Part shown: positions 390 through 11,972 of the stretch, in pieces
How the letters are laid out: every line of letters begins with the position of its first letter
How positions within the stretch are numbered: the first letter of the stretch is position 1
Source: Candidatus Sumerlaeota bacterium
Lineage (GTDB): Bacteria > Sumerlaeota > Sumerlaeia > JAFGJS01
Direction: 5' to 3'
DNA length: 14,551 nt
Assembly (NCBI GenBank): GCA_016928995.1
Contig: JAFGJS010000146.1
Location: 1 to 14,551 of the forward strand
The notes under the pieces: generated by a model
The model's database searches: none
What the model saw: the letters and a program-made list of their open reading frames with translations, nothing else
What the model was told of the DNA's origin: nothing
Program-made: the position numbers and the translations under genes

Positions 390-971
390 TTACGTATCCT
401 TTTTTACCAATCCCGCTTCGACTTCCTCGTCAAACTCATCGAGCGCCTGATCGAGAATCACTTGCGCCTTGGGTCCATATTGCCGCTGCAGCGCCGTTCC
501 GGCATTGCGCAATTTCGCCGCAAGGCGCACCATCAATTCGTGAATCTCATCGCGTGGAATCAGGTTCCGTTCCTTCGTGTCATTTTCGATCTGCAACTTG
601 CGCAGACGCTCCCGCTCCAATGGATTGAGTTCTTCCGGATCCTTCTTGTCGTCCTGGCGCAGTTTCCACTTATTCTCCGCGAGGAAATCATGGAACCATT
701 TGACAACTTCATAGAGGTCGATCACCTCGCCGCGAAGCGGGATGCCATGATGATCGGCCTGCTTGTTCAAAACCCACGCCGGCCGTCCTGACATCTCCCG
801 GTAATCCGTCTTGGACACGGTCTTGTAATATTCCTTGCGCCTTTCCTTCTCGCGTTCTTTCTCGATTCTGTTCAACGCCGCCGATTCTCTCGCCGTCGGC
901 TCCACGCCCCGCTTTTGTTTTTCCAGCGCCGCGATCGCCAGACGCCGGTCCGTGTCAGTGACAGCCTTCAC
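390..971 (-). CDS. Terminase small subunit, Nu1-like
   Basis: A 193-residue protein that likely recognises the packaging site and recruits the large terminase subunit. Residues 1-50 form a charged, mostly helical arm rich in Lys, Arg and Glu. Residues about 55-97 look like a winged helix-turn-helix (SGRPAWVLNKQADHHG, then a wing and VIDLYEVVKWFHDFL). The stretch PLERERLRKLQIENDTKERN (117-136), followed by LIPRDEIHELMVRLAAKLRN, is the helical pattern typical of Nu1-type subunits, which use it to oligomerise and contact the motor. The start is GTG at 969-971, overlapping the methyltransferase stop as GTGA, with AAAGGA 7 bases upstream. The large subunit begins at once after the stop. The family call rests on domain pattern and position, because small subunits are poorly conserved in sequence. 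The long N-terminal arm ahead of the helix-turn-helix is somewhat unusual. Confidence 0.8.
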   Translation of the reverse strand: MKAVTDTDRRLAIAALEKQKRGVEPTARESAALNRIEKEREKERRKEYYKTVSKTDYREMSGRPAWVLNKQADHHGIPLRGEVIDLYEVVKWFHDFLAENKWKLRQDDKKDPEELNPLERERLRKLQIENDTKERNLIPRDEIHELMVRLAAKLRNAGTALQRQYGPKAQVILDQALDEFDEEVEAGLVKKDT

Positions 972-1969
972 GCTTCAATCCTTTCCAGCATCTCGCTTCT
1001 GACGTGCTGGGCGATCGCCTTCATCATCAGCGGCGGAACGCAGTTGCCGATGCGATAGAAGCCCCACTTCCAATCGCCGGGAAATTTGAAGTCGTCCGGG
1101 AAACTGGCCAGCCGCTTGTACTCCAGCAGGGAAAAAGTCCTGGTGTAAAGCGGGTGACAGCCCACGGACCGCAGGTAGGGCGGCATCGCCTGCGCTTCAT
1201 GGGCCGGCTTGGTCAACGTGCCCGCCGGCTTGTTCCACTCGTAACGGCGCTGCTGCCCCGCGTATTTCTTGCCCTGCTTCGCCCGGCGCGCCAGCTGCCA
1301 GGTCTTCGTGTTGCGGCCCGCGGGCGACTCGTCAATCCACACGTGATCGCGGGCGGGATCGGGCGTGTCGCCCAGATCGCCGATCGCGCTGCGGATGCTC
1401 AGCGGCCGCGTCATGGGCTTCGGATGGCTGGGCGCGGGCGTCAGGTCATTGCAGACGCCGATGAAGATCAAGCGTTCGCGCGATTGCGCGACGCCGTAGT
1501 GCATCGCGTTCATCAGGCAGCAGCGCACCTGGTAGCCCGCGCTTTTCAGCGTCAGCAGAATCTCCCTGAAGGCCGCACGCATCTTGCCCTTGATCATGCC
1601 GGCGACGTTTTCCATCACGAAGACCTTCGGCCGAAGACCGGCAAGCAGCCGCACGTACTCCTCGAACAACCGGTTGCGCGTGTCGCCATAGTTGCGCGTT
1701 CCGGCCAGGCTGAAGCCCTGGCACGGCGGCGAGCCATCGAGCACGTCCAGTTCGCCAGGTTGAATTCCGGCCAGCGCGAGGCATTGCTCGATCGACAAAT
1801 CGCAGATGTCGCCGTGGTGGACCTTCAGTTCCGGAAAATTGACCTTGAGCGTCTCGACGGCGTGATCGTCCCACTCCACCGCCAGCAGCTCGCGATAGCC
1901 AGCCCAGAGATAACCGAGCGACGAACCGCCACATCCCGCGAATGTTGAAATCACCGCCGTCTTTGTCAT
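968..1969 (-). CDS. DNA (cytosine-5) methyltransferase
   Basis: A 333-residue S-adenosylmethionine-dependent C5-cytosine methyltransferase. The motifs occur in canonical order: motif I FAGCGGSSLG (10-19) for cofactor binding; motif IV GSPPCQGFS (79-87) with catalytic Cys83; motif VI MENV (119-122); motif VIII QSRERLIFIG (162-171); a motif IX-like NKPAGTLTK (246-254); RLASFPDDF (286-294); and motif X GNCVPP near 308-313. The target-recognition region between VIII and IX is short, so the sequence specificity cannot be read. The frame is open upstream to 2233, but I start at the ATG at 1967-1969, because motif I follows directly, an AAGGAAT ribosome binding site precedes it, and it overlaps the upstream ParB-like gene as ATGA. 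No restriction endonuclease is adjacent, so this looks like an orphan phage enzyme, perhaps protecting viral DNA from host restriction. Confidence 0.95.
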   Translation of the reverse strand: MTKTAVISTFAGCGGSSLGYLWAGYRELLAVEWDDHAVETLKVNFPELKVHHGDICDLSIEQCLALAGIQPGELDVLDGSPPCQGFSLAGTRNYGDTRNRLFEEYVRLLAGLRPKVFVMENVAGMIKGKMRAAFREILLTLKSAGYQVRCCLMNAMHYGVAQSRERLIFIGVCNDLTPAPSHPKPMTRPLSIRSAIGDLGDTPDPARDHVWIDESPAGRNTKTWQLARRAKQGKKYAGQQRRYEWNKPAGTLTKPAHEAQAMPPYLRSVGCHPLYTRTFSLLEYKRLASFPDDFKFPGDWKWGFYRIGNCVPPLMMKAIAQHVRSEMLERIEA

Positions 1970-2499
1970 TTCGGGAATTCCTTTTGGCAAAACGGACACA
2001 CAACCATCTCGACCGCATCGGCGACGCTCTCGTCGATTTCCGGCGGATCGCCCGACGGCATCACGCCCAGCAGTTCGCTGAGCAGCAACGCCTGCGACAA
2101 TTCCGGAACTGCCAGTTCGATTTCCAGCAGCAGCGCATCCAGATCGGCGCTGAAGTCGCCGGCAATCTCGTGATTGTTGAGCGTCACGCACAGACCTTTT
2201 TCTTTCACCGAGTCCGGCTCGATGTTCACCCACGTGATGTCATCCGCATGAATCCAGTCCTGCCCGAGTTCCAGCAGCGCCTTGACGCGTTGATGCCCGC
2301 CGATGATCCGGTTGCCGTTCACATTGACCGTGATCGTGCCAACCATGCGCAGGCCGTTGGCCGCGTCCCAGCCTTCCACGTTGGCGCTGAATTCACGGAT
2401 CGAAGCCATCAAGCCATCCAGCGCCGCCGGCGAGATTTCCCGCGGATTGTAATCCAGCGGCGTCAAGTCCGAGATTTTGATTTTCCGTTCATTTGTCAT
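1966..2499 (-). CDS. ParB/Srx-type nuclease-fold protein next to the methyltransferase
   Basis: A 177-residue protein. Residues 5-95 resemble the ParB N-terminal (ParB/Srx-fold) domain: an opening IKISDLTPLDYNPREIS (7-23), then GNRIIGGHQRVKALLELG (62-79), which is the GHRR-like box that binds or hydrolyses nucleotide in this fold. Residues 99-145 (KEKGLCVTLNNHEIAGDFSA and following) match the extension seen in phage ParB-domain proteins that are often fused to DNA methyltransferases. Here the methyltransferase is a separate gene joined by an ATGA overlap, which suggests a shared role in DNA modification or specificity. The last ten residues carry CPFC (168-171), half of a zinc knuckle. No ParB helix-turn-helix is seen, so partitioning is unlikely. 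An AGGTGAG ribosome binding site lies 8 bases before the ATG. Confidence 0.8.
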   Translation of the reverse strand: MTNERKIKISDLTPLDYNPREISPAALDGLMASIREFSANVEGWDAANGLRMVGTITVNVNGNRIIGGHQRVKALLELGQDWIHADDITWVNIEPDSVKEKGLCVTLNNHEIAGDFSADLDALLLEIELAVPELSQALLLSELLGVMPSGDPPEIDESVADAVEMVVCPFCQKEFPK

Positions 2500-2607: not shown

Positions 2608-3006
2608 TTAGACCTCCTCGATTTGGATCCAGATGCCAGGCGTTTCCACCGTCCAGAACTTCTCGATGATTTCCGATGCGACTTGCGCGTCGTCGTTCCA
2701 GAATTTCAGATCGGTCATCACATCGAACAGGAGTTTGTTCAGGTTGTGCGTATCCGGACGCGTCTGCTTGAATTTGCCATGCAGCGATTTCTTCCGAGTT
2801 GGAAACAGCCACTTGACCATTACGCGAAGCGGGAGCGATGAGTCGAACGGCTGTGCCGGTCTGTGCTGAGCCAAGTGCGCGGAGAGTTTGGCTCTGGCCT
2901 CTTTCAATTCGGGGTTTTCGAAAAACACAGGCTTGCCAGTCGTCGCATTGACGGACTTTGTCTGATGCGTTGTTCTTGGCGGTTTCATCGGCATAAAGAA
3001 CTGCAT
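2608..3006 (-). CDS. rusA: RusA-like Holliday junction resolvase
   Basis: A 132-residue, RusA-sized endonuclease that would cut four-way junctions arising during phage recombination and replication, yielding DNA fit for packaging. The family signature is clear: RPDTHNLNKLLFD (83-95) followed by FWNDDAQV (102-109), aligning with RRDLDNLQKAAFD and FWLDDAQV as I recall them from E. coli RusA. Asp85, Lys91, Asp105 and Asp106 are kept. The residue matching the second catalytic Asp of E. coli RusA is His87 here. The ATG at 3006 has an AGGA about 12 bases upstream, rather far; ATG codons at residues 5 and 7 are alternatives. It sits downstream of the inverted-repeat block and upstream of the modification genes. 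The family is secure; activity is less so because of the changed residue. Confidence 0.88.
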   Translation of the reverse strand: MQFFMPMKPPRTTHQTKSVNATTGKPVFFENPELKEARAKLSAHLAQHRPAQPFDSSLPLRVMVKWLFPTRKKSLHGKFKQTRPDTHNLNKLLFDVMTDLKFWNDDAQVASEIIEKFWTVETPGIWIQIEEV

Positions 3007-3060: not shown

Positions 3061-3164
3061 CATTCCCTCGTTCCCGACAGTGTAGGCACGTCGGGGAAAC
3101 CCCAGTCCCCGACTGCCTTCACGTAAGGGAATGAGAGGGAAACGATACTACCCGTAGGGTAGTA
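3061..3164. repeat. Nested GC-rich stem structures beside the repeat array
   Basis: Several inverted repeats are stacked here. TACTACCC (3146-3153) and GGGTAGTA (3157-3164) form a perfect 8-bp stem with a 3-base loop. GTCGGGGA (3090-3097) pairs perfectly with TCCCCGAC (3106-3113). TTCCCGAC (3071-3078) can compete for the same GTCGGGGAA. CATTCCCT (3061-3068) pairs with AGGGAATG (3126-3133), enclosing the inner stems. GGGG-AAA-CCCC at 3093-3103 is a further alternative. The pairings are mutually exclusive in part, so more than one fold is possible. No coding sequence fits this region. Positions 3007-3060 hold only the purine-rich leader of the resolvase gene. Confidence 0.6.
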
Positions 3165-3372
3165 GATTTCCCTTCCCGATTTCCCTCGGAAAGGAAATCT
3201 GCTAGTACATTTCCCGATTTCCCTCGGCGGACAGAACAGGGAAATCGGGAAATCAGTTAACAGATTTCCTTCCCTCGCACGGAGTAGGGAAATCGGGAAA
3301 TTGTAGCGTGATTTCCCGGTTTCTCTATCGTGAGGGAAATTGGGAAATCTGCTAGTCATTTCCCTTTCCCTC
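3164..3372. repeat. Inverted-repeat array of GGGAAATC octamers; candidate replication origin or ParB site
   Basis: Four stem-loops follow each other. First, AGATTTCCCTTCC (3164-3176) with GGAAAGGAAATCT (3188-3200), one mismatch. Second, ATTTCCCGATTTCCCT (3209-3224) with AGGGAAATCGGGAAAT (3238-3253), 16 bp perfect, 13-base loop. Third, AGGGAAATCGGGAAAT (3286-3301) with ATTTCCCGGTTTCTCT (3311-3326), 16 bp with two G-T wobbles, 9-base loop. Fourth, GAGGGAAATTGGGAAAT (3332-3348) with ATTTCCCTTTCCCTC (3358-3372), with a 2-base bulge. A further half-site is at 3263-3275. Each arm is itself a tandem of the octamer GGGAAATC. A longer motif, GAAATCTGCTAGT followed by CATTTCCC, occurs twice (3194 and 3343). 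The primase-helicase stop codon sits in the fourth loop. Iteron-like repeats next to a replication initiator gene commonly mark an origin; that role is inferred, and a parS-like role is the main alternative. Confidence 0.75.
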
Positions 3373-5589
3373 CCCAATCTCGACAACAAGGCCATTTTTG
3401 ACGGCATATTTTGGATGATCCTTTACGTAGTTCCGCACTGTTTTCTCGGTGCAAGCCATGAACTCGGCCACATCGGCGATAGTGACCGGCTCTCCAAACT
3501 TCGCCTGAACAGCCTCTTCCAGCGACTCCATACGATCTTGTCTCTGTTCTTTTACTAACTCTTTACGCCGGCGTTTTTTCTCTTCGTGTGACACCTGCTT
3601 ACGCGCCCATGGCGGCTCTTCACCTTCGGCCTTGGCGTCTTTCAGGAAGCCGTCCTCGTCGACCACATGCGTCGGGTAGCGAAAGTATAGTGTTTTGGGC
3701 GCGAACGCTGGAAACTCTCTCAGAGTGCCTTCCAAGCGCCATCCTGTGGCCTTCTCAGCGGACTCTCGCGCTTGTTCGCGCACAGGCCTGAGTAACTCGG
3801 CATGACCCGTGCTTTCAGCCCATTCGACCAATTTCTCCGCTACCAGCATGTCGTCCTGGCCGATAGTGCCGCGCCAGCTCTGCACAGTCCGGTCAAGATG
3901 TTTGACCATGGCTTCACATTGCCAGCGATTGACAATCTGCTTGCGGCGGTCCTCGTCGATCTCCAGTTCGATAAGGTCGATAATCGTATCCGGATCGCGC
4001 GAGAACACGCCGGAGCCGGAAGAGCGATCCTGGGACTGCTTCTGGCCCTGGGCGCCCTTGCTGTGATGATGACAAACGATTGTCGCCGCTCCGAGTTGCG
4101 CGCAAATCTTGTCGAACTGGTTGCAGAAGTGCGCCATCTGCTCCGCCGAGTTTTCATCGCCAGTCAGCACTTTGTAGATCGGGTCAATGATCACGGCCTT
4201 GTATTGCTTCTTGAGCGCCCGGCGGATCAGTTTCGGCGCCAGTTTGTCCATACTGGTGGCGGAGCCCCTCAGATTCCACACGTCGAGCATTCCCGGCGTT
4301 TTCCGGATGCCCGCCTCCCGGTAGATTTTCCAAAAGCGATGCCTGCAGGAAAGCGGATCAAGTTCCAGGTTGACGTAAAGGACGCGGCCCCGGCCGGTCT
4401 GCCAACCGAACCACTGGCGGCCTTCGGCGATTGCGATGGCCAGTTGGATCAGTGCGAACGATTTTCCGGCCTTGGATGAGCCGGAGAGCAGCATCTTGTG
4501 CCCTTCGCGAAGCACTCCCTGGATGAGTTCCGGGGCCAATTCCGGTTCGCTGTCGTCGATTACAATTTCTTCGATGTCCGGCAAGTCGTCGTTCAGGTCT
4601 TTGATCCATTCTTCCCATTCCGCCCACGAAGCCTTGCCGATATGAGTGTCGATCAAATATTGCTTGTGACCATTGCGCATGACGCCCGGCATTCTGGACA
4701 GCCTGGACGGATTGCGGTTCTGGCGGTCGATCTTCAGGCCGTTGCGTCCGCAAACCTCATAGAGAAAGTCCACGCGCTTGCGATACTCTTCCATCGTGTC
4801 GGCCTCGATGCGCACAATGGCATGAACCGACTTTCCACCGCTGTAAACCAGCGCGGTGATCGGCAATTCCAGTTCGCGGAACATGGCGTTTTGCTTTTCC
4901 AGCGACATGGCGTCCGACTCAACCAGGGCGAAGCGAAACGCCGTGACGTTGGAGTCGCGAACGCCCTGTCCATCCAACGGATTGAAGCGAATCCATGCGC
5001 CCACGTCCGGACGGCAATCGCCCATGACGGAGCCAATATCGCCGTTGCACTTGCCCAGGGCGTCGATCAACTGGCCTGCCGTGCGATCATAGCAACCGCG
5101 CTTTGGCAGGAAATGACCGTCTTTCTCCCATGACTCCGTGACGTAACCGACGTGCTCCTCGGCGTCAAACAACAGCGACAGGTAAGTCGTCAAATCACTC
5201 ACTGCGTCCCAGCCGTCGCCAGGCTCTTGCAGTTCCTTGCCCTCAATCCAGTTCATATCGACGATTCGCAGATCGTCGCCTTCATCCGGATCGTAGATCA
5301 CTTCATCCCAATCGAGCGCGCGGCCTTCATCTCGCGGAGGCGACCAGCCATGTTCTTTCGCCAGCGCGAAAAGCGTGGCAATTGTGACGGGATTATTGGA
5401 GCCGCGAAAGCCTTCCCACTTGCGCAGACACTCGCCTTCGACATATCGCGCTGAATCGCGGCGGCTCCAATTGTCCCAATCCGTGGCCGTCGCTCCGGCG
5501 TCTTTAAGAGCCATGCCCACGCTGAGCCATTGCTCGTAATCCAGCGCGACGGGATTGATATGTTTAAGCAGTTCGAGAGGATTGTTCAT
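3352..5589 (-). CDS. Primase-helicase with PriCT-2, primase-like and RecA-fold domains
   Basis: A 745-residue multidomain replication protein. Residues 10-83 match the PriCT-2 pattern (WLSVGMALKDAG, WSRRDSARY, KWEGF, ITIATLFALAKEHGW-like end). Residues about 195-305 look like an archaeo-eukaryotic-type primase core: WIRFNPLDGQG, then FRFALVESD (218-226), the motif II-like SGGKSVHAIVRI (250-261), and IDRQNRNPSRLSRMPG (287-302). Residues 355-545 form a RecA-fold ATPase (AAA_25-like) with Walker A GSSKAGKS (370-377), Walker B AVIIDP (465-470) and IVCHHHSKG (504-512), like RepA/DnaB-family helicases. A C-terminal helix-turn-helix is likely at about 700-728 (TIADVAEFMACTEKTVRNYV). It probably primes and unwinds DNA at the phage origin. 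It overlaps the upstream helicase gene as ATGA. Its 3' end runs into the repeat array. In the primase core the first acid motif reads E-S-D rather than D-x-D. Confidence 0.85.
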   Translation of the reverse strand: MNNPLELLKHINPVALDYEQWLSVGMALKDAGATATDWDNWSRRDSARYVEGECLRKWEGFRGSNNPVTIATLFALAKEHGWSPPRDEGRALDWDEVIYDPDEGDDLRIVDMNWIEGKELQEPGDGWDAVSDLTTYLSLLFDAEEHVGYVTESWEKDGHFLPKRGCYDRTAGQLIDALGKCNGDIGSVMGDCRPDVGAWIRFNPLDGQGVRDSNVTAFRFALVESDAMSLEKQNAMFRELELPITALVYSGGKSVHAIVRIEADTMEEYRKRVDFLYEVCGRNGLKIDRQNRNPSRLSRMPGVMRNGHKQYLIDTHIGKASWAEWEEWIKDLNDDLPDIEEIVIDDSEPELAPELIQGVLREGHKMLLSGSSKAGKSFALIQLAIAIAEGRQWFGWQTGRGRVLYVNLELDPLSCRHRFWKIYREAGIRKTPGMLDVWNLRGSATSMDKLAPKLIRRALKKQYKAVIIDPIYKVLTGDENSAEQMAHFCNQFDKICAQLGAATIVCHHHSKGAQGQKQSQDRSSGSGVFSRDPDTIIDLIELEIDEDRRKQIVNRWQCEAMVKHLDRTVQSWRGTIGQDDMLVAEKLVEWAESTGHAELLRPVREQARESAEKATGWRLEGTLREFPAFAPKTLYFRYPTHVVDEDGFLKDAKAEGEEPPWARKQVSHEEKKRRRKELVKEQRQDRMESLEEAVQAKFGEPVTIADVAEFMACTEKTVRNYVKDHPKYAVKNGLVVEIGEGKGND

Positions 5590-7178
5590 CTTGATCCCTT
5601 CGCAGGATTATATTCCTTCGGATCAATATCTTGCGGAACCTGCCAGCGGTTGGCTGCAATACGGTCGATCAATTTGCGAGCATATTCAAAGTCCCACCGG
5701 CCGACATGCTGAAAGCCCATACGTTCCAAAAATCGAATTTGTTTGGGCGTCGTCAGCCCTTCGTTCCGGCGTTTTTCCAAACGGTCGAGTATCTTCGCCG
5801 CTTTGCCGGCGCTCTCGATGTCGTCCGGCAGGATGCCGAGTTTTTCGAGGGTTTTCTGTTGCGCCTCGGACGGCGGAGCCATTTCCCAGCCGAATGCGGG
5901 AACGTAGTTCGCCAAGTCTTCAGCCTGGATGGACATTTCAAATTGAAGCGGATCAACCAGTTTGCGTTTCCGCTTTTTCATCTCATCAAGTTTTTTGGCG
6001 AGCGCAGCCTCGCGTTCAGCAACGGCGTCGCATTCGGCCTGCTGCTCTGCTTCTTCCAGCTCAACCGGTTCACCAGCCGCATTCTCCATGTTCTCAGTCA
6101 TTTTCCGGGCGACTTCTTCCGATTCGCAGATTAGATGCGCCGGACGGCTGAGTTCATGGCGTTCTGAATGCCAAAGGAAGTCGAGGAGCAACAAGTCTTG
6201 TTTGCCCGGATGCAGACGAGTTCCGCGGCCGACAATTTGGCAATAGAGGCTGCGAATCTTGGTCGGACGCAGACACACAATGCAATCCACCGATGGGCAA
6301 TCCCAGCCCTCGGTGAGCAGCATGGAGTTGCAGAGCACATCATAAGCGCCGTTGTCGAAGTCGCGCAGAATCTCGTCGCGGTCTTTGCTTTTACCGTTGA
6401 TCTCGGCCGCTCGAAATCCTTTGCGCTTGAGAATATCGCGCATCTTCTGGCTGGTGGCGATGAGGGGAAGAAAGACAACGGTTTTTCGATCGCGACAGTA
6501 TTGCGTCATCTCTTCGGCGATTTGTTCTAGGTACGGATCAAGCGCGCTGCCCAGGGCGCTTGCCTGGAAATCGCCGGACTGAATTTTCACGCCACTCAGA
6601 TCTATTTTCAGCGGAATTGTGACAGCCTTGATTGGACACAGGTAGCCGTCCTTGATTGCCTTCGGAAGTGAATACTCATAAGCCAGGTCTTCGAAATACT
6701 CGCCCAGGTTGCGCATGTCGCCGCGATCGGGCGTCGCGGTCACGCCAAGCACTTTCGCTCCCTCGAAGTGGCTCAAAACACGCTGATAGGACTTCGCAAG
6801 CGCATGGTGCGCCTCATCGACAATGACCACGTCGTAATAGTCTGGATGGAACTGCTTCAACCGTTGCGGACGCATCATCGACTGAATGCTTCCCACGGTG
6901 ACGCGAAACCATGAATCGAGCGCCGACTCTTCCGCTTTTTCCGTCGCGCATCCAAGGCCGGTCGCTCGGTTCAATTTGTCCGACGCCTGGTCGAGCAGTT
7001 CGCCGCGATGTGCGAGAATCAAGCATCGCTTGCCCTGCTCGACCATCTTCTTGATCAATAAGCAAAACACGATCGTCTTGCCAGTTCCCGTGGGTAGCAC
7101 AAGGAGCGTCCGGTTATATTTTTCCCATGAGCGCAGAATCGCTGTTTCTGCCTCAGATTGGTACAGCCTCGGTTGCAT
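5586..7178 (-). CDS. DEAH-box superfamily 2 helicase
   Basis: A 530-residue ATP-dependent helicase of the SSL2/type III restriction-like SF2 group. Seen in order: LYQSEA (5-10), motif I LPTGTGKT (28-35), motif Ia LAHRGEL (55-61), motif II DEAH (121-124), motif III TATP (147-150), motif V LLTEGWD (287-293) and motif VI QIVGRGTRLHP (314-324). A charged probable coiled coil spans 376-407. The C-terminus holds two copies of a small module (about 436-471 and 476-511), each with Gln, Leu, Gly and a LDR/IDR followed by a basic end. Such helicases are common in phage replication clusters and may melt the origin or remodel forks. The ATG at 7178 is 6 bases after the previous stop; its ribosome binding site is weak, suggesting translational coupling. 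The helicase call is secure; the cellular role is inferred from context. Confidence 0.92.
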   Translation of the reverse strand: MQPRLYQSEAETAILRSWEKYNRTLLVLPTGTGKTIVFCLLIKKMVEQGKRCLILAHRGELLDQASDKLNRATGLGCATEKAEESALDSWFRVTVGSIQSMMRPQRLKQFHPDYYDVVIVDEAHHALAKSYQRVLSHFEGAKVLGVTATPDRGDMRNLGEYFEDLAYEYSLPKAIKDGYLCPIKAVTIPLKIDLSGVKIQSGDFQASALGSALDPYLEQIAEEMTQYCRDRKTVVFLPLIATSQKMRDILKRKGFRAAEINGKSKDRDEILRDFDNGAYDVLCNSMLLTEGWDCPSVDCIVCLRPTKIRSLYCQIVGRGTRLHPGKQDLLLLDFLWHSERHELSRPAHLICESEEVARKMTENMENAAGEPVELEEAEQQAECDAVAEREAALAKKLDEMKKRKRKLVDPLQFEMSIQAEDLANYVPAFGWEMAPPSEAQQKTLEKLGILPDDIESAGKAAKILDRLEKRRNEGLTTPKQIRFLERMGFQHVGRWDFEYARKLIDRIAANRWQVPQDIDPKEYNPAKGSR

Positions 7179-10289: not shown

Positions 10290-11972
10290 TTATGCCGCCT
10301 TTTGCTGACGCGTTTTTTTCTTGTCTGCCTTCTTTTTCGTCGCGGTCTTCGGCGTGCCGTCCGCGTTGAGCTTCGCCCAGGACTTCGGATCGGGTTTTTC
10401 GCCGACGGCCTCGCTTTGCATTTCCTTCAGGTTCAGACCGAGCGCTCCGCAGATGCTGGAGAGTTCGACCTGTGCATCCTTCTCGCTGTAGTTGCCGTCT
10501 CGCAGGCAGCAAAGGCGCTTGCGCAGGATCGGCAGAACGCACTTGTAGGTTTCCGCATCCATGAGCATGGCGTCTTCGCGGCTCAACGCCCGGTAGCGAT
10601 TCCAGCAATCTGCGGGCTTCCGGTTTTCCCACGTCTGGCCATAGTCCAGCGTGCCCCAGGTCAGGGCGTCGTTTTTGAAATCCATGCCGAACGCGGCGGC
10701 CAGCGAAGGCGCGTTGCAGAATTGCAGGAAGGGAACAATTTCGGCCGCGGGCAGTTTAAGCCGGGCGTCAAGGTCTTCGATGATTTTGCCGATCACGATT
10801 TTGCGGCGCGATTTGTCCAGCGCCTCGCGCCGCTCTTTCAGCGTCTTCACGCCGTCCGGTCCCGGTCCGGCCCCCTTGCGCGACTGCGACGCGGCGCTGG
10901 AATTGGACATGGGCGGACGGCAATACAGCACGACCTTGCCCGGATTGTCGCCGGCGACGACGAGTCCGGGCAGCGCGCCCTTTTCCGCCTTCTTGCAGCG
11001 CGTCCAATTCCAGTGCGGCAGGACCACGCGGTTCTTGAACGCCGCAAAGGGCGACGTGCTTTCATAACTGTCGCTGATCAACAACACGTTGCCGTGTTTT
11101 TCCTTCAGTTCATCGTGCTTGGCGCTGAGCCAGGCGTTGAGTTTCGCTTCCCAGCATTGCGGATCAAGGCAGCGGTCGGTCTTGCTGATTTTCGCGTTTT
11201 CCGGCGCGGGCTCCTCGTCGTCGAACAAGTCCGGCTGGCAGCCGGAGCGCTTCTTGCAGTTCAGGCACGACGGCGTATTGGGCAGCAGTTCCTTGTCCTC
11301 AATCTGCCACGGCGCGCAACGTAGCAGGTGCATCAAATCGCCAAGCCAGTTGCGCAAATCCTGCAGCGTTGCACTGGCCCATTCTTCCACTTTCCACTTA
11401 ACTTCATGAATCGCGTCAAACAGCTCGTCCTGGATGTTTTTGGGATAGACCGCAATCGCCTCAAGGTGCGAAGCCGACCACGCGACGAACGGCGAATCAT
11501 CCTTGAGCATGACCTTGCGCCAATTGTCCGACAGTTTCGTGATCGACGCGCGGCGGGCGACCCATTGACGGCCCTTGCCCAATTGGTTCGCCACCTGGTC
11601 ATAGGTCCAGCCATCGTCAAGCAGCATCTGAATGCCCGCGGCCTCTTCAAGCGGGTGCAGGTCTTCGCGCTGCAGGTTTTCCGTGACAGTGATTTCGCGG
11701 GCTTCCTTGTCGCTCAGCTCGCGCACAATCGCCGGGATTTTTTCCAGCCCCGCGACTTTTGACGCGATCAGGCGGCGCTCGCCGGCGCGCAGGTCGAACT
11801 TGCCCTTGCGCGTGGGATGCGGCCGCGCGAGCACCGGCTGCAAGACGCCCATCGCCTTGATCGACTCCGCCAGTTCGGCGATGCACGCCGCTTTCGGATT
11901 CAGTTTCTTGCGCGGATTGTCCGGCGTCGGAATCAGGTCCTTCACCGGAATGAGTTGGATTTGAGACTCCAT
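10290..11972 (-). CDS. ParB-like protein with a cysteine-rich middle region
   Basis: A 560-residue ParB/RepB/Spo0J-family protein. Residues 5-110 carry the N-terminal ParB domain: IPVKDLIPTPDNPRK (8-22), GVLQPVLARP (42-51), FDLRAGERRLIAS (59-71) with the GERR CTP-binding box, and ITVTENLQREDLHPLEEA (94-111). A helix-turn-helix follows (WTYDQVANQLGKGRQWVARR, 122-141). Residues 236-273 hold CLNCKKRSGC and CLDPQCW (Cys236, 239, 245, 268, 273), a likely zinc site seen in some plasmid and phage ParB-like proteins. The rest is less familiar and ends in a Lys-rich tail (541-560). It probably binds specific DNA, as a partition, origin-handling or silencing factor. No ParA gene is in the window; the next gene is an SMC-like ATPase. 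The start ATG at 11972 follows AAAGGGG. Chromosomal ParB is about 300 residues, so this one is long. Confidence 0.87.
   Translation of the reverse strand: MESQIQLIPVKDLIPTPDNPRKKLNPKAACIAELAESIKAMGVLQPVLARPHPTRKGKFDLRAGERRLIASKVAGLEKIPAIVRELSDKEAREITVTENLQREDLHPLEEAAGIQMLLDDGWTYDQVANQLGKGRQWVARRASITKLSDNWRKVMLKDDSPFVAWSASHLEAIAVYPKNIQDELFDAIHEVKWKVEEWASATLQDLRNWLGDLMHLLRCAPWQIEDKELLPNTPSCLNCKKRSGCQPDLFDDEEPAPENAKISKTDRCLDPQCWEAKLNAWLSAKHDELKEKHGNVLLISDSYESTSPFAAFKNRVVLPHWNWTRCKKAEKGALPGLVVAGDNPGKVVLYCRPPMSNSSAASQSRKGAGPGPDGVKTLKERREALDKSRRKIVIGKIIEDLDARLKLPAAEIVPFLQFCNAPSLAAAFGMDFKNDALTWGTLDYGQTWENRKPADCWNRYRALSREDAMLMDAETYKCVLPILRKRLCCLRDGNYSEKDAQVELSSICGALGLNLKEMQSEAVGEKPDPKSWAKLNADGTPKTATKKKADKKKTRQQKAA

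Follow-up and report, generated by a model that had tools for sequence, protein, structure and literature searches.

A stretch of the analysed phage DNA, positions 3065-3370, probably serves a phage of the InversePrim-primase group as its replication origin, with the adjoining primase-helicase as the probable initiator. We put the probability of this reading at about 80%. The window, i.e., the whole stretch of DNA that was analysed (14,551 nt), ends where its contig ends. We infer origin function of the repeat array because the predicted binder carries primase and helicase domains, because the array sits 3' of the binder's own gene, as in SaPI and SCCmec, and because replication of pRN1 depends on a stem-loop 3' of its primase-helicase gene. 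An earlier reading made from the letters of the DNA alone (the sequence-only reading) had already suggested iterons beside an initiator gene and probably an origin; the position of the array, its recurrence in related phages and its co-variation with a winged helix all support this suggestion. The features discussed below are listed in Table 1.

Table 1. Features of the candidate origin region and the adjoining genes in the window.
Feature	Position	Strand	Remarks
RusA-like Holliday junction resolvase	2608-3006	-	Pfam RusA, E 4.5e-24
Long imperfect stem-loop	3065-3137	-	Counterparts in many relatives: shape conserved, sequence changing
Tenth half-site, degenerate (GGGAATGAGAGGGAAACG)	3127-3144		Beyond the palindrome; pairs with 3165-3171 around the palindrome
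Short perfect palindrome, TACTACCC-GTA-GGGTAGTA	3146-3164		At the distal end of the array
Main iteron array	3165-3370		Nine alternating half-sites, variants of AGGGAAATCGGGAAAT; the last (3357-3370) inside the primase reading frame
Primase-helicase, candidate initiator, 745 aa	3352-5589	-	Pfam, phrog_2597, RSF1010 RepA by profile and fold
C-terminal winged helix, residues 704-737	3379-3480	-	AlphaFold2 models
Recognition helix, residues 715-724 (EKTVRNYVKD)	3418-3447	-	Predicted; K716 and N720 are candidate base-reading residues

Exact inverted repeats of 10 bp or more within 80 nt take up 96 of the 209 bases of 3164-3372. In 2000 dinucleotide shuffles the average was 0.7 such bases and the highest count 44, and the other 209-nt windows of the contig hold at most 22, which bears out the earlier claim that these repeats are beyond chance. 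Eight of the nine exact copies of the octamer GGGAAATC in the window fall within 3120-3380. The sequence-only reading described four stems plus an extra half-site. The repeats are present, but they belong to a single array at 3127-3370, whose ten half-sites alternate strictly in orientation and are all variants of AGGGAAATCGGGAAAT. In plus-strand coordinates the half-sites start at about 3127, 3165, 3188, 3208, 3239, 3263, 3287, 3310, 3334 and 3357, with a spacing of 43-55 bp between those on the same strand, and the perfect 16-bp stem is formed by 3209-3224 and 3238-3253. The fourth stem was said to run across the stop codon of the primase-helicase gene. It ends at 3349, short of the TAG at 3352-3354, and the extra half-site is coding. 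The limits of 3164-3372 hold repeats as described but were drawn too narrowly, missing the palindrome, the half-site at 3127-3144 and the long stem-loop. The minus strand of the palindrome with its flanks folds to a single hairpin (3138-3171). A dispersed host element is rejected, as the tandem 16-mer has a single match with one mismatch (contig C25) elsewhere in the 4.55-Mb assembly; dispersal through the host genome had been named beforehand as a finding that would speak against the proposal, and it was looked for in the assembly and not seen.

The primase-helicase matches phrog_2597 with 1048 bits. In Pfam, PriCT_2 was found ahead of the primase domain, at residues 6-77 (E 3.8e-20), and AAA_25 at residues 346-513, with no match to a Toprim domain. 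Between PriCT and the helicase lies an AEP-like primase domain (residues 120-345, approximately), in which E224, D226, H256 and D288 are invariant among 37 aligned homologues. This pattern fits an archaeo-eukaryotic primase (AEP), with motifs assigned by eye and from knowledge of the family and with no fold match; in the whole-model fold search the list was filled by helicase matches. The helicase (about residues 340-640) is RSF1010-RepA-like with a RecA fold. RSF1010 RepA is the closest solved helicase in both profile and fold comparison, with E 5.6e-8 in a PDB profile search and, against 1g8y_A, a VIA-align Z of 21.3 (rmsd 3.4 Å over 227 residues). At the C-terminus AlphaFold2 places a winged helix, consisting of helices 704-711 and 715-724 and strands 728-731 and 734-737. 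It has structural neighbours among winged-helix proteins, e.g., DtxR (Z 8.0). On the predicted recognition helix, residues 716 and 720 are separated by about one turn. The features known from InversePrim that were found here are the N-terminal PriCT, the RepA-family helicase after the primase and the AEP motifs with a histidine in motif II.

For comparison with related phages, primase loci were drawn from IMG/VR, GTDB genomes and phage records and reduced to a non-redundant set of 113 loci (primases <85% identical). An automatic test asked whether the 300-nt window at the primase stop is the densest inverted-repeat place of its locus, which applies to 87/113 loci, or beats a composition-matched null (p<0.01), which applies to 84/113. 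By either criterion, 90 of the 113 phrog_2597-related loci have an array between primase and rusA, and several of the 23 loci failing the automatic test show arrays by eye (L070, L093, L104). Others that fail have repeats displaced downstream by an insertion (L063, L091), and in L039 and L044 there are none. The sequence-only reading had proposed to look for the octamer array at the same place in related phages. Place and format do recur, but the octamer sequence differs between phages, with half-sites such as GGGACAAAA, GTGGAAAT, TGTCAAAA, CCGCAAAA, GGAAGAAAAC and others. No exact match to the 17-mer of the array was found in IMG/VR, which is expected if every phage has its own half-site. Among 99 genomes of closer host relatives there was only one strong homologue (L029, 57% identical), and it has its own, different array. 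The hosts of the relatives include Streptococcus, Paenibacillus, Bacillus, Enterococcus, Ruminococcus and others. In BCJA1c and Vegas, the two complete phage genomes tested, the array window is the densest inverted-repeat window of the genome. The GC skew of two complete phages has no turning point at the array and is uninformative as origin evidence.

The order of array, short palindrome and often long stem-loop recurs between primase and rusA in the relatives. RusA, found in 95/105 loci, is the next gene and forms the outer boundary of the origin region in most of them; the RusA match begins a median of 449 nt away from the primase stop. In arrays whose core is clear, the median number of exact core sites is 6, over about 200 bp. 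Strict alternation of half-sites is not a general rule of the family, since only 166 of 361 neighbouring core sites are in opposite orientation. Two loci have no repeat array after the primase stop together with an intact-looking helix-turn-helix, namely L039 (63% best-segment identity; after 5786) and L044 (after 5711), and their origin may lie elsewhere or have been lost.

Several loci differ in detail. L063 and L091 have a stretch resembling a small gene between the primase stop and the repeat-dense region, and L066 and L068, which are similar to L063, have no array directly 3' of the primase stop. At the place of the array, Enterococcus phage EFC-1 (L280, 4650-4960) has direct repeats of TAGCTATTTA, not inverted half-sites. 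The primase of L100 (match 3501-5708) has an in-frame stop near its C-terminus, where the repeats begin. In the window itself, a C-5 cytosine DNA methyltransferase gene (968-2104, minus strand; DNA_methylase, E 1.2e-61) adjoins a terminase-small-subunit-like gene where the early region ends.

Half-sites that differ from phage to phage can be compared with the protein that might read them. In a partial Mantel test over 60 loci, array k-mer similarity was set against winged-helix identity with correction for the remainder of the protein, under a permutation in which loci count as exchangeable. With this correction, array similarity is correlated with the winged helix at a partial r of 0.38 (p 0.0005). 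The converse test leaves little for the remainder of the protein to explain once the winged helix is accounted for, with r of 0.06-0.11 and p of 0.19, 0.07 and 0.046 for k = 5, 6 and 7. In steps of 20 residues along the protein, the array signal was located within residues 661-740. RusA identity, used as a linkage control, has no link to the array (r 0.03).

Each half-site has a specificity block and, after it, an A-run. A rule was written from the first 60 loci, before new loci were fetched: R720 goes with C directly before the A-run, N720 with G, and N716 with GTC. Of 46 new non-redundant loci, 29 were predictable and 23 of these were predicted correctly (Fisher p 1.7e-4 on the C/G cases). 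Independent contrasts were taken on a tree built from the remainder of the protein, and 16 of the 18 contrasts changed as predicted, none in the opposite direction and 2 not at all. Six of the 18 pairs are wholly held-out (4 as predicted, 2 unchanged), and the other 12 include loci from which the rule was found. When all alignable protein columns were scanned, with no region chosen, the best column for base -1 was residue 720 (z 6.7), and bases -2 and -3 were both best predicted by residue 716 (z 12.7 and 6.0, respectively); the scan has no phylogeny correction and includes the training loci, and some unrelated columns reach z 5-7. T stands at -2 in 6/6 N716 proteins and C at -3 in 6/6 D716 proteins. 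A coding-DNA control gave no residue-base link. The window, with K716 and N720 in its protein and AGGG before AAA in its half-sites, is in line with the rule.

Across these sequences, residue 720 tracks the last base in front of the A-run, and residue 716 the one or two bases preceding that base. The co-variation statistics strongly indicate, at the level of sequence, that the primase-helicase recognises the array via its C-terminal winged helix. The C-terminal helix-turn-helix had been named earlier as a candidate binder, a proposal which the partial Mantel test, the column scan, the held-out prediction and the contrasts all favour. The array adjoins the 3' end of the gene, and the co-variation might thus reflect mere linkage, with adjoining DNA inherited together by recombination. 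This is highly improbable. RusA on the other side is without link to the array, so that linkage alone does not explain the co-variation; the signal peaks at two residues four apart in the recognition helix, and in 16 of the 18 independent contrasts a given residue change is again paired with the same base change.

Most arrays end distally in a short palindrome with a small loop, for example TATATATACTACGTATATATA, TATATATAAATATATA or TACCCTAAAGGGTA. The palindrome is AT-rich in most relatives. As a general unwinding element, however, an AT-rich palindrome fails in the window, where the phage is GC-rich and the palindrome is not AT-rich, and in several other GC-rich cases (L065, L117). Many phages of the group also have the long stem-loop, built in three tiers (e.g., L040 5943-6003 and L078 5860-5922). 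Of the 11 pairs predicted for the consensus of the family, 9 show at least one compensated double change. By analogy, we would guess that the long stem-loop is a priming site. It could equally act in the transcript, because it has G-U pairs on the sense strand.

The whole array might likewise act as RNA, as a run of hairpins at the 3' end of the primase transcript that serves as attenuator, terminator or processing element. The minus strand can indeed fold into consecutive hairpins, and the compensated changes and sense-strand G-U pairs of the long stem-loop mean that this element could function as RNA. Nevertheless, we regard an RNA role of the array as very unlikely. The half-sites of one array share one sequence, which a DNA-binding protein needs and RNA pairing does not, and their bases follow the residues of the recognition helix. 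In addition, no Rfam match was obtained for the window and nine relatives, no T-run follows the long stem-loop and terminator-like matches in the region are weak.

Two ParB-like genes are encoded in the window, at 10290-11972 (minus strand, 560 aa, HTH_ParB domain) and at 1966-2499 (minus strand). Sites for ParB are palindromic, and the sequence-only reading had considered such sites here. parS sites are usually conserved. The half-sites, in contrast, differ between phages, and their sequence tracks the winged helix of the primase instead. Most array-bearing loci are also without a relative of either ParB-like protein: in flanks of a few kb, the large one has a relative in 5/104 other loci and the small one in 0/104. 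ParB is thus rejected as the general binder of the arrays, with relatives rare among 104 other loci of which most hold only part of the phage, and a parS-like partition site for the two proteins of the window is extremely improbable.

Co-variation is evidence of recognition, not of origin function, and these data would also fit an operator or a partition-like site bound by the same protein. An autoregulatory site of this kind could control rusA and later genes or shut off transcription. The array is flanked by two genes of the same operon and has one weak promoter-like match, which would suit such a site, yet promoter-like matches are near background. A median of 6 core sites over about 200 bp is more than operators usually need, the binder has primase and helicase domains, and a conserved palindrome and stem-loop adjoin the array. 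We therefore consider a purely regulatory site unlikely and favour a replication origin.

At such an origin, several initiator protomers would bind the alternating half-sites, and a RepA-like ring might be loaded at the palindrome. The AEP primase domain could then prime on the strand thus exposed, possibly at the long stem-loop, in the way that RepB' starts at the ssi hairpins of RSF1010, and the primers would be extended by the host polymerase. A broader reading, for which we see even odds, is that the origins of InversePrim phages form a class that can be read from sequence. One chain would do the work of RepA, RepB' and RepC, residues 716 and 720 would set specificity by a simple and repeatedly switched code, and many mutually private origins would be served by one conserved engine, with the shape-conserved stem-loop as the start site of the primase.

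The papers searched contain no replication mapping, binding or genetic data for any member of the group. They do not describe the array anatomy or the recognition code, nor did a search with the family name find them, and both appear to be undescribed in this literature. The array provides a candidate origin for a large group of temperate phages for which none was found described in the literature searched. The natural co-variation supplies a code for protein-DNA recognition that can be tested and that has switched independently many times; with it, the specificity of an origin can be predicted from the sequence of its initiator. A further suggestion is that related phages keep their replication systems separate in this way.

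InversePrim is an AEP family of the PrimPol-PV1 supergroup which is found mostly in prophages of Firmicutes (Kazlauskas et al., 2018, PMC5862659). The protein described here resembles it in having PriCT before the primase, a RepA-family helicase and a histidine in motif II, and in its occurrence in prophages. The consulted parts of that paper name PriCT-1, whereas Pfam gives PriCT_2 for the present protein, and they describe neither a C-terminal winged helix nor an origin, both of which are added by our analysis.

The sequence-only reading could not match the repeats to a known format, which holds only in part: the position directly 3' of the helicase gene and repeat binding by a C-terminal domain are known from SaPI Rep, and an origin with a stem-loop from pRN1. 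The alpha protein of P4, acting at ori and crr, unites primase, helicase and a repeat-binding winged helix in one polypeptide. The iterons of the P4 origin are octamers. Its primase is of the Toprim type and its helicase of another class, in contrast to the AEP-like motifs found here. The SaPI and SCCmec (Cch2) helicases use C-terminal domains to bind repeats located immediately 3' of their own genes (PMC7581432), and the SaPI Rep/ori system shares with the present locus an array of short repeats directly 3' of the helicase gene. These helicases are of the DUF927 or D5-like Primase_Cterm type, unlike the AAA_25/RecA-fold, RepA-like helicase with an AEP in front, and the alternating inverted octamer tandems, the palindrome and the long stem-loop are features of the locus described here.

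In the plasmid pRN1, a stem-loop 3' of the gene for the primase-helicase ORF904 is required for replication (PMC4234260). ORF904 also combines AEP, helicase and winged helix in one chain, and the shape but not the sequence of its 3' stem-loop is conserved. It differs in its SF3 helicase, where the present protein has a RecA-fold helicase, and its origin has no iterons. In RSF1010, RepC binds iterons, RepA unwinds and RepB' primes at stem-loops. The RepA-type helicase is shared, and oriV likewise has iterons and stem-loops at which an AEP primase starts. RSF1010 uses three separate proteins, whereas a single chain of 745 aa is present here. By analogy, the RSF1010 division of labour appears to be the likely model, with its activities joined in one chain. 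The locus would therefore be of a familiar type, in which an iteron origin adjoins the gene of its initiator; new are the widespread conserved anatomy and a code written out by natural variation.
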